Part shown: positions 2,002 through 38,714 of the stretch, piece after piece
How the letters are laid out: each line of letters begins with the position of its first letter
Position numbering within the stretch: position 1 is the stretch's first letter
Made by a program: the position numbers and the translations under genes
The notes under the pieces: generated by a model
The model's input: the letters and a program-made list of their open reading frames with translations, nothing else
What the model was told of the DNA's origin: nothing
Database searches by the model: none
From: a virus
Length of the DNA stretch: 38,714 nucleotides
Reading direction: 5' to 3' (one strand)
IMG/VR virus record: IMGVR_UViG_3300031707_000066
Coordinates: 1 to 38,714 of that record

Positions 2002-3924
2002 TTACTTTCCTCCTGTCATAAATTTATTTGCGAGAATCAGGGCTTCCCTATAAGGGATTTTTTCCTTTTTCTCTATCCTTTCTGCAAGGATGTGGAGTTC
2101 AATGTTCTTGACCTCTTCTCCTTTTTCAGAATACTTTTTTACGATTTTATCTTTTTCCTCGTCTGTTACTTCTTCCGAAAACTTCTCGTCATCTTTTGCT
2201 GTTGATTTCAGAAGTTCTTGGAGTATGACTGACTTCCCTTTTACAAGTTCCGAAAGCATAGTGAAAAACAATTCACGTGCATTCAGTTCCTTGTCGTCAA
2301 ACTTTACAATACTGTCCACTCCTTCAAGAACTTCACTGAACTTATCAATGTATTTGTCAAGGGCAGGAATAAGAATACCCCTGTTTTGTATTTTCAAGTC
2401 CTCTGTCATTTTTTTGAGTTTTTCTTTCTGCAACTGTTTTATCTTTTCCTGCAACTCGGCGTATTTCTTTTCCTGTTCCACTTTGTCTGCGTCAACTTTC
2501 GTAGTGTCTTCTTTTTGCCTTGTTGCTTCTATTTCCTGTTTCCTTTCGGGTGTCATAGCGTGGTGGTAAATCCAACCGCAAAGTGCTTCTGGATTGTCCG
2601 CAGTCCCGCTGACACTTGAAACACATTGGTCAAACCAACCTTTCGGCGGTTTCAGGTCATCAGGAAATCCGTCGGCTTTTACCATCTTACCGAGTTCATC
2701 TTGCTTTTCTTTCGGTAGTGCTTTATATTTTTCAATCATAGGTGCCACTTCTTCGGGCTTCCAGTCCTTTGGTTCTTTTTTCAATAAATCCTTATATTCG
2801 GCAATACCTTCTTCTTTCGGTGGTTGGCCAGATTTTGCTTCATCGGGTTTTGCTTCGGGTGGTTTTGTTTCATCTGGTTTCTGACCGTCAGGGTTGCCTT
2901 CTCCCATAGCAGGAACACACTTCTGTGACGCTTCGTCCCATTTCATACCTTTCGGGCAGACCTTTCTTTCTTCTTCCTTTCCTGCGTTGTCTGTCGTAAC
3001 GCTTTCTGGAATACATCTCCCGACAGTAACGTCCCACTTGAAGTCAGGCGGACATTCTGGATTAGGGTTACCTGCACCATCTACGAATTTACTTAATCTT
3101 TCTTTTGTTAAAATCTCTGCGTATTCGTCCACAGTAATGGAGTCTTTTTTCTTTTCCTCCATATATTTTTTGACCACTTCCACGCAACACGGTGACATTT
3201 TCTCAACATCTTTTAACGTCCAAATACGTTCCATCTTGTTTACCTCCTGTAAATCTTTTTCTGAAAATGTGGCGAAAGTGAAACTCGCCTCGCTATTATA
3301 TAATGCCTGTATATCTCCAAGACCTTTTATAGCAGGAACATCACCTCCGAGTAACGCTACTGCTCTTAAAACTTTCCCAATGTTCTCGCCAGTAGTCGGA
3401 TGTTTGAATTCGTTGTATATCTCAGCACTAATCTTGCTGTATGCTCTTTTATCAATAAGTTCCTTTACTTTCTTCGGAACATCGCCTATATCAACAAATA
3501 TCTGGTCGCCGATACGATATATCTTGTCAACATATCCGCCCGCAGGCAGTCCGTCGTTTTTAAGAAGTTTCTGCTCTTCATTGTGTCCAAGTTTTATCGG
3601 TGGTTCGTGAAGGTGTGAATTAAGAAGTGCGTTTGTATTGGTTACTATTTCATCTATGTCATCAATCGTGAAGTTCTGTCCTTTGTGGTTTCCTGCTTTG
3701 AATACGGGAACGCTTGTTACAGTAAAGACATTCTGATTTGCTGATACTTTTCTTCTGTTTCCGACTTTTAGTCCAGCAGGTATATGGACATCGGTTGCGG
3801 TTGGGCTTGTGAAGTCTGCTCCCCAAATTCCACCTGCTATATAGCGTTGACATCTTTCCTTTGTCCAACCCTTCCTCTGCATACAGTTATTGACTAATCT
3901 TTCCAGTTCTTTTCCTTCTGGCAT
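2002..3924 (-). CDS. Mu I-like head maturation protease with C-terminal scaffold
   Basis: 640 residues. Residues about 55-215 match the Mu I-protein protease family: VFKAGNHKGQNFTIDDIDEI, PPIKLGHNEEQ, GLPAGGYVDKIYRIGD, YSKISAEIY, and the AVALLGGDVPAIKGLGD block. The rest is a charged, helix-rich scaffold (about 460-640), expected to guide capsid assembly and be cleaved. There are three unusual cysteine modules: N-terminal C14/C25 in an NNCMQRKGWTKERCQRY segment; two CP...W...C repeats around residues 285-335; and a DNPEALCGWIYHHAMTP motif near 435. These may bind metal or form protein contacts; that is inference. A Pro/Lys/Glu linker follows the second repeat. The gene follows a consensus promoter and a structured leader and starts at ATG 3924 after TTTGGAG. 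Confidence 0.85.
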   Translation of the reverse strand: MPEGKELERLVNNCMQRKGWTKERCQRYIAGGIWGADFTSPTATDVHIPAGLKVGNRRKVSANQNVFTVTSVPVFKAGNHKGQNFTIDDIDEIVTNTNALLNSHLHEPPIKLGHNEEQKLLKNDGLPAGGYVDKIYRIGDQIFVDIGDVPKKVKELIDKRAYSKISAEIYNEFKHPTTGENIGKVLRAVALLGGDVPAIKGLGDIQALYNSEASFTFATFSEKDLQEVNKMERIWTLKDVEKMSPCCVEVVKKYMEEKKKDSITVDEYAEILTKERLSKFVDGAGNPNPECPPDFKWDVTVGRCIPESVTTDNAGKEEERKVCPKGMKWDEASQKCVPAMGEGNPDGQKPDETKPPEAKPDEAKSGQPPKEEGIAEYKDLLKKEPKDWKPEEVAPMIEKYKALPKEKQDELGKMVKADGFPDDLKPPKGWFDQCVSSVSGTADNPEALCGWIYHHAMTPERKQEIEATRQKEDTTKVDADKVEQEKKYAELQEKIKQLQKEKLKKMTEDLKIQNRGILIPALDKYIDKFSEVLEGVDSIVKFDDKELNARELFFTMLSELVKGKSVILQELLKSTAKDDEKFSEEVTDEEKDKIVKKYSEKGEEVKNIELHILAERIEKKEKIPYREALILANKFMTGGK

Positions 3925-3938
3925 TTTTTTTCTCCAAA

Positions 3939-4022
3939 TAAAAAAACCGAACTAATGTATTTAAACATTGCCACAAACCCATAAGGTTCATAACACTTCC
4001 ATAGGAAGCAATTCGGCTTACT
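3939..4022 (-). ncRNA. Structured leader or small RNA before the protease gene
   Basis: Predicted RNA of about 83 nt starting near 4022, 8 bases after a perfect -10 box. An 8-bp closing stem joins 4019-4012 (AAGCCGAA) to 3951-3944 (UUCGGUUU, one G-U pair). It encloses three hairpins: 4008-3996 (5 bp CUUCC/GGAAG, loop of 3), 3988-3976 (4 bp AACC/GGUU, loop of 5) and 3969-3954 (5 bp AAUGU/ACAUU, loop of 6). U7 follows at 3946-3940, so the closing stem can act as an intrinsic terminator. The protease ribosome site and ATG 3924 come directly after. It could be a free small RNA or an attenuator of the head operon. The folding was done by eye. It matches no riboswitch or tRNA known to me. Confidence 0.6.
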
Positions 4023-4029
4023 GATACGT

Positions 4030-4058
4030 ATTATACACTATCAATGTAATTTTGTCAA
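4030..4058 (-). promoter_or_regulatory. Consensus sigma-70 promoter for the head operon
   Basis: On the minus strand TTGACA (4058-4053) and TATAAT (4035-4030) are separated by exactly 17 bp, matching the bacterial housekeeping consensus at all 12 positions, with TG one base before the -10 box. The -35 box lies in the last codons of the preceding gene. Start predicted at 4021-4023, immediately before the structured RNA. Confidence 0.9.
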
Positions 4059-6651: not shown

Positions 6652-6680
6652 ATTATAGTTTATGTTTTTGAAAAAGTCAA
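6652..6680 (-). promoter_or_regulatory. Sigma-70 promoter for portal gene
   Basis: TTGACT (6680-6675) and TATAAT (6657-6652) with a 17-bp spacer on the minus strand, 11 of 12 consensus positions. It begins 5 bases after the large-terminase stop and leaves a leader of about 100 nt before the portal ATG at 6543. Confidence 0.82.
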
Positions 6681-11418: not shown

Positions 11419-11447
11419 ATTATACATCAAGTTCTTTCGTTTGTCAA
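11419..11447 (-). promoter_or_regulatory. Consensus sigma-70 promoter for ParB/terminase operon
   Basis: TTGACA (11447-11442) and TATAAT (11424-11419) separated by 17 bp, a 12 of 12 consensus match, between the VRR-NUC gene and the ParB-like gene. The predicted start near 11412 leaves only about 10 nt before ATG 11402, so the ribosome site is at the very 5' end of the transcript. Confidence 0.9.
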
Positions 11448-20956: not shown

Positions 20957-20981
20957 TTTTTTACCCGCCTTTTTTTAAATT

Positions 20982-21029
20982 AAAAAGGGCAGTCACGGAA
21001 TCGGAACAGAAACCGTAACCACCCTTTTT
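20982..21029. terminator. Terminator-like hairpin T2 before the RadC-like gene
   Basis: AAAAAGGG (20982-20989) pairs with CCCTTTTT (21022-21029), with an inner imperfect stem ACGG/CCGT. A run on one side and T run on the other make it usable in both directions. On the minus strand it ends about 25 bases before the RadC-like start. Confidence 0.65.
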
Positions 21030-21040
21030 GACATTAAAAA

Positions 21041-21089
21041 GGCTTAAAAGAGTCCCGATTTTTACCACCTCTCTTTTTTCTTTTAAGCC
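21041..21089 (-). terminator. Terminator-like hairpin T1 in the early leader
   Basis: Perfect 11-bp stem GGCTTAAAAGA (21041-21051) with TCTTTTAAGCC (21079-21089), followed in the minus-strand transcript by UUUUU. The 27-base loop contains most of one copy of the duplicated 17-bp box, so something binding that box could open or block the hairpin. Confidence 0.65.
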
Positions 21090-21115
21090 CTTTCTTGCAG
21101 TCCCGATTTTTACCA
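21051..21115. repeat. Duplicated 17-bp box in the early leader
   Basis: AGTCCCGATTTTTACCA occurs exactly at 21051-21067 and 21099-21115. One copy lies before the 5' arm of T1 in transcription order and the other lies in its loop and 3' arm. The sequence is not palindromic, so an RNA box or a non-dyad DNA site is more likely than a classical operator. Confidence 0.75.
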
Positions 21116-21155
21116 TATCTTAATCCTTCTAAAATTGCCCTACCCCTTCACTAAT

Positions 21156-21184
21156 ATAATAACATATTTTTTTGAAATTGTCAA
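21156..21184 (-). promoter_or_regulatory. Early promoter Pb
   Basis: TTGACA (21184-21179), 17-bp spacer, TATTAT (21161-21156), 11 of 12 consensus positions. Start predicted near 21149, upstream of both 17-bp boxes and both hairpins. Confidence 0.65.
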
Positions 21185-21245
21185 TAGGTATTTTAAAATT
21201 CCCCTGCCCCTCAAATCCTTGACGGTAATCCTTATCCATACCATA

Positions 21246-21274
21246 ATTATATAAAATTTTGAAAAGGTTGTCAA
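21246..21274 (-). promoter_or_regulatory. Early promoter Pa
   Basis: TTGACA (21274-21269), 17-bp spacer, TATAAT (21251-21246), a complete consensus match, 90 bases upstream of Pb. A third TTGACA at 21337-21332 has no matching -10 box. TTGTCAATAGG is shared by the Pa and Pb -35 regions on the plus strand. Confidence 0.82.
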
Positions 21275-38283: not shown

Positions 38284-38714
38284 TATTTCAAACCCACCAC
38301 GCTTTCATCAATGTTTGTGTCGTCAACTGTCCAAGTGCTTCCGTCGTCAAGCGTCATAATTCTCTTTACGTTTTTCGTTGTGGAATCTATTGCAAATCTT
38401 GAATCTCCTCCCGAAGGGCTTATTATTACTCCTGTGGAAGTTGTAAGTCTGATTTCATTGCTTTCAATCTTAGAAAGAACTTCGTCAACCCATTCCTTCC
38501 ACTTATTGTAGCCCATCTCTGGACTTTGACTTGGGCTTGGCGTCCTGTTTTGGTATATATCTCTTAAAACTGCGTATCGTGAATAATTTATACAAATAGT
38601 ATCAACTAATACTGCTGTCTGTAAATCCGCTCTTGTGTATCCAAGTTTTATTAACCTTGCTTCTACATAGTTTTCCGCTTCATCTATCCTTAAATCAATA
38701 TCGGTATCAAGCCA
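38283..38714 (-). CDS. Mu gp36-like head-tail connector, C-terminal part (gene crosses circle junction)
   Basis: This is the 3' part of the connector gene; coding continues beyond 38714 to the ATG at 199 once the circle is closed. The internal methionine at 38516 is codon 91 of the full protein, so a 77-residue call starting there would be truncated. This part carries the second helix pair (WKEWVDEVLSKIESNEIRL) and a beta-rich tail ending at TAA 38285-38283. The stop overlaps the start of the gpG-like gene (TAATG), implying translational coupling. Total length 167 residues, close to the usual size of gp36-like proteins. Confidence 0.75.
   Translation of the reverse strand, partial: WLDTDIDLRIDEAENYVEARLIKLGYTRADLQTAVLVDTICINYSRYAVLRDIYQNRTPSPSQSPEMGYNKWKEWVDEVLSKIESNEIRLTTSTGVIISPSGGDSRFAIDSTTKNVKRIMTLDDGSTWTVDDTNIDESVVGLK
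38588..38714. repeat. Right copy of 127-bp terminal direct repeat
   Basis: Second copy of bases 1-127. The reading frame of the connector gene runs through this copy without interruption and continues at base 128 of the left end to its start codon at 199, which supports true circular closure. Confidence 0.95.

Follow-up and report, generated by a model that had tools for sequence, protein, structure and literature searches.

A structured leader RNA before the head protease gene of a Mu-type-head phage, a candidate promoter-proximal terminator

Leader and promoter control in described phages

The leader made between pR′ and tR′ of phage lambda is the source of the lambda 6S RNA. Unless Q intervenes, late transcripts initiated at pR′ end at a terminator (PMC6266700), and the late genes, preceded by a strong sigma-70 promoter, a short transcript and an intrinsic terminator, depend on readthrough (PMC6266700, PMC4604602). 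The head operon of the phage analysed here resembles this arrangement, in that a strong sigma-70-type promoter and a predicted terminator stand before the first late gene. Unlike the lambda leader, however, its predicted terminator begins less than 10 nt from the expected 5′ end of the RNA and carries a multi-helix top, and the first gene encodes a head protease instead of a lysis function. No convincing Q gene and no qut were identified in this phage; the start region is AT-rich.

Two other systems are comparable in part. In the Mu-type head module, the promoter P_I lies directly before gene I, which encodes the protease/scaffold protein, as does the promoter described here; P_I, however, needs the activator C, whereas the present promoter matches the consensus in full and it is the leader that would exert control. 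The putL site of phage HK022 encodes an antiterminator RNA with two stem-loops (PMC9378689), and it too is a structured RNA of approximately 70 nt just after an early promoter. Put RNAs have no terminator of their own, whereas the present leader consists of a closing stem, three hairpins and a U7 run, so the two-stem-loop, terminator-free form of put is not found in it.

Promoter and predicted fold of the head-operon leader

The window, by which we mean the whole stretch of DNA analysed, is a contig from an uncultivated tailed phage, 38,714 bases long. The same 127 bases stand at both of its ends (1–127 and 38588–38714), an exact terminal repeat from which we take it to be, very probably, a circular assembly that is complete at 38,587 bp. 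All recognisable genes of the record are on the minus strand, in the order Mu-type portal, protease, small decoration/scaffold-like gene, capsid protein and tail genes, and then an early region, in which Pfam and PHROGs scans recognised RadC-like, Cas4-like exonuclease, DnaD-like and ParB-like genes and most genes are without a named function.

A sequence-only reading of the window had claimed a perfect sigma-70 promoter with a 17-bp spacer upstream of the protease gene, and we find it on the minus strand at 4058–4030, with the −35 hexamer TTGACA (4053–4058) and the −10 hexamer TATAAT (4030–4035) together matching the sigma-70-type consensus at 12/12 positions. This promoter overlaps the end of a 117-aa ORF downstream of the portal gene, and its spacing predicts a transcription start at approximately 4022–4024. 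Three 12/12 promoters are present in the whole window (21274, 11447 and 4058), all on the gene strand, so the one at 4058 is typical of the strong promoters of this phage and not unique. The portal operon, which has its own 11/12 promoter at 6680, reads towards the leader site. No terminator was found after either of the strong promoters at 11447 and 6680.

The RNA expected from the promoter at 4058 (approximately 4022–3940, minus strand) is predicted to fold into a closing stem around three hairpins, followed by a U7 run, with a minimum free energy (MFE) of −28.3 kcal/mol and a z-score of −4.88; none of 200 dinucleotide shuffles folded as well. From 5′ to 3′ on the minus strand, its parts are the 5′ arm of the closing (terminator) stem (AAGCCGAAUU, 4010–4019), hairpin 1 (GCUUCC-UAU-GGAAGU, 3995–4009), hairpin 2 (GUUAUGAACCU-UAU-GGGUUUGUGGC, 3970–3994), hairpin 3 (AAUGU-UUAAAU-ACAUU, 3954–3969), the 3′ arm (AGUUCGGUUU, 3944–3953) and the U7 run (3940–3946), which is the predicted termination point. 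This agrees with the fold described in the sequence-only reading, including its length of 76 nt stem to stem. The closing stem that it gave as 8 bp is likewise present, but has 10 pairs in the MFE structure (4019–4010/3953–3944), of which the earlier 8 are the outer part and the last three use the first Us of the U-run. The ribosome binding site GGAG (3932–3935) and the ATG (3924) of the protease gene both lie outside the fold; this gene (2002–3924, minus strand, 640 aa), the head maturation protease/scaffold gene, is the first after the leader and matches the PHROGs head maturation protease.

The leader ranks third among the most structured 90-nt stretches of the window (both strands, GC-corrected). 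A scan of the window for long-range closed stems followed by a U-run picked out three candidates. Two of them are on the gene strand, with energies of −27.8 and −25.4 kcal/mol, against −20.2 for the best of 12 shuffled windows. A standard terminator scan, with loops of 3–8 nt, misses the leader fold. As expected of an intrinsic terminator, a stable stem stands directly before the U-run; the compact G+C-rich hairpin with a short loop is absent, and the 56-nt structured loop and the three G-C pairs in the core stem are unusual for an efficient terminator.

At the gathering score no Rfam 15 family matches the leader, as the sequence-only reading had anticipated, and at relaxed thresholds nothing was accepted. 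The candidate considered was the freshwater-2 RNA (RF02980), a cis-regulatory RNA that likewise has hairpins, a U-run, GGAG and a start codon in that order; its match reached 20.7 bits (E 0.41), well short of the gathering score of 49.9, rests mainly on the U-run and ribosome site, and was rejected. A tRNA-like reading was also dropped, as ARAGORN finds no tRNA in the leader. DNA similarity searches in phages and plasmids returned chance matches only.

A second leader of similar layout precedes the early operon (20970–21274, minus strand). It has promoters at 21274 (12/12) and 21184 (11/12) and two terminator-like, U-tailed stems at 21094–21036 and 21029–20982, whose cut-stem energies are −16.8 and −26.9 (z −2.7 and −7.6); downstream of them come a ribosome site and the RadC-like gene (20956) that opens this operon. 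This leader is the most structured 90-nt stretch of the window after GC correction, and it also holds a 16-nt direct repeat, GGTAAAAATCGGGACT. Judging from these arrangements, both main operons seem to begin with a promoter, a terminator and then a gene.

Other folds on the minus strand were seen elsewhere in the window. A stable, closed multi-branch fold without a U-run (AGCAGGGCAG...CTGCCCTGCT, 15214–15125, z −4.3) lies between small genes, and a very stable hairpin, also without a U-run (17727–17684, z −5.7), adjoins the AAGGAG ribosome site of the Cas4-like gene. Between tail genes, a long stem with U9 (30373–30292) has the ATG of a 63-aa ORF in its 24-nt loop.

Leaders before the protease gene in related phages

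Protease and capsid profiles, searched against IMG/VR, gave approximately 15 distinct relatives of this phage group, with protease identities of about 35–50%; single-sequence searches with the portal and capsid found no relatives. In GTDB genomes the protease profile had no match, and the capsid profile matched one Myxococcales sequence weakly and a contig of an Endomicrobia MAG. The latter relative, L088, is part of a contig that binning assigns to Endomicrobia (Elusimicrobiota), which hints at the host group of these phages.

Seven relatives (L005, L006, L008, L009, L059, L067 and L068) have the same order of promoter, folded leader, U-rich tail and protease gene; in L059 one small ORF stands before the protease, which in the other six follows directly. 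Their promoters carry TTGACA and match the consensus at 10 to 12 of 12 positions. The leaders extend over 79–223 nt from the predicted start, and the best 85-nt stretch of each has a z-score between −4.3 and −8.3. The U-rich tails have 6–8 U in 8 positions, compared with a background, which is that of 8-mers and not of known terminators, in which 5.6% of 8-mers have at least 5 T. In L067 and L068 the leader position is occupied by long-stem terminators of ordinary type, which indicates that the slot is a terminator slot. In L068 a 41-aa ORF between promoter and terminator (170–295) resembles what we take to be DUF2292 proteins. On a reading of their sequences, L005 (18–1886) and L008 (34–2349) also carry portal/minor-head fusions with an intein-like insert near the C-terminus.

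Other relatives (L002, L003, L031, L037 and L088) keep the promoter and have leaders of 14–42 nt with no significant fold, so the leader is not essential in the wider group. On the protease tree the folded leaders are spread out and the leaderless form occupies separate clades (L031+L037; L088+L002+L004; L033+L072). The simplest reading of this distribution is a folded leader that was already present in the ancestor and was lost on several occasions.

The nearest match to the leader of the window is that of L006. Between the two, hairpins 1 and 2 keep all 17 of 17 pairs, with four two-sided and three one-sided changes, and when partners were slid by 1–3 columns as a control, no two-sided changes were seen. 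Two of the two-sided changes are in hairpin 1. The base of hairpin 2 (GUUAU/GUGGC), with three G-U pairs, is unchanged in L006, and the upper pairs of this hairpin covary. Both leaders have a closing stem, though not of the same length or sequence, and hairpin 3 is found in the window and missing in L006. A DNA pattern of hairpin 1 had no match in IMG/VR, and one of hairpin 2 matched L006 and ten further places that we judged from their context to be chance.

When a covariance model was built from the window and L006, it recovered the leaders of L067, L059, L005, L009 and L008, each on the expected strand and at the expected place, at 9–22 bits. However, the plain terminator of L068 scores 15.3 bits, as high as L009 and close to L005. 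Since most leaders thus score no better than a plain terminator, we do not claim one RNA family across all eight phages; at the level of sequence and predicted folds, the layout appears conserved across the eight, and homology of the apical structure is not supported beyond L006. Upstream of the relatives' proteases the layout given in the sequence-only reading recurs, with compensatory changes in hairpins 1 and 2 against L006, but its three hairpins do not hold as one conserved unit, given that hairpin 3 is not conserved and L068 has a plain hairpin. On the opposite strand, the model also matches a hairpin between the decoration-type and capsid genes of three relatives (L002 5240–5315, L004 5283–5358 and L061 1604–1678).

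Probable premature termination and competing readings

The position of the predicted terminator is informative. Because it follows the operon's own promoter, it must act on the transcripts of that promoter, and premature termination is thus the most economical reading. The early-operon leader, with the same layout, strengthens this reading. We therefore consider it probable that the head-operon leader is a promoter-proximal intrinsic terminator with a multi-helix top, which causes premature termination with controlled or fractional readthrough; termination itself, its regulation and its regulator we infer. Between the small RNA and the premature-termination switch that the sequence-only reading had offered, the recurring layout and the covariation in hairpins 1 and 2 favour the termination option, and support neither a free small RNA nor an actual switch.

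The alternatives differ in what the RNA would do. The leader could be a sensing element, riboswitch-like or opened by a phage protein, in which the hairpins would recognise some partner and the choice between terminator and readthrough would rest on a competing pairing of the 5′ arm. In predicted folds of L005, L008 and L067, the 5′ arm pairs with an internal segment before the 3′ arm is made and is later displaced by the terminator, which would allow a switch, and the unchanged base of hairpin 2 below covarying pairs suggests a sequence constraint. In the window and L006, however, the 5′ arm stays free until the 3′ arm is made and no mutually exclusive pairing was found; with no Rfam match and sequences unconserved across the phage group, we regard sensing as unlikely. 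We find it still harder to see the locus as the gene of a stand-alone small RNA that acts in trans and is merely sited before the protease. The strong promoter and terminator do bracket a compactly folded RNA of approximately 83 nt, but the relatives' leaders vary in length and are unrelated in sequence, that of L068 holds a small ORF, and what is kept among the relatives is the position before the protease, no copy of the leader having been found elsewhere.

An insulating terminator, stopping transcripts from the upstream portal operon ahead of a new promoter strong enough to tolerate it, would fit the direction of that operon and its promoter at 6680, but would be expected before the promoter, whereas in 8 of 8 phages the terminator comes after it; this explanation is about as improbable as the small RNA. 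Least likely is a put-like RNA, which would bind RNA polymerase and, as in HK022, let it pass later terminators. The leader is placed like putL, just after a strong promoter, and has several stem-loops in approximately 70–80 nt (PMC9378689), yet putL consists of two stem-loops without a closing stem and U-run, this leader closes with a terminator-like stem of its own, and in L068 there is a plain hairpin only. A leader-peptide attenuator was considered as well, as several hairpin loops contain AUGs and the window and L006 share M-x-L-W; it was rejected because the small ORFs differ in every relative and their ribosome sites and frames are inconsistent.

Under premature termination, RNA polymerase would start constitutively at the strong, activator-independent sigma-70-type promoter, the hairpins would fold as they emerge, and the closing stem would form while the U-run is made. 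Much of the transcription would then stop at the U-run, leaving an RNA of approximately 83 nt, and head-gene expression would depend on readthrough. The fraction that reads through could be constant, or readthrough could await a phage or host antitermination event acting on the polymerase or on the fold of the leader. No convincing antiterminator gene emerged when most of the proteins were scanned against Pfam and PHROGs; the match to a Q-like PHROG family, over 12 residues (E 0.0076) and without a counterpart in Pfam, is likely chance.

The leader thus probably serves as a checkpoint that times capsid production or turns it on and off. Control of this kind is known; its RNA form here is unusual and complex. 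That it represents a new class of phage regulatory RNA, whose multi-helix terminator top senses a phage protein or small molecule, times capsid production and has been kept over the deep divergence of the group, is a speculative and rather doubtful extension. If the premature-termination reading is right, uncultivated phages with Mu-type heads would time capsid production by a stop after a constitutive promoter and not by an activator as in Mu, and leader termination of the lambda style would reach the head operon in a phage group unrelated to lambda. The short leader RNA could be sought directly in metatranscriptomes or with a reporter in a laboratory strain.
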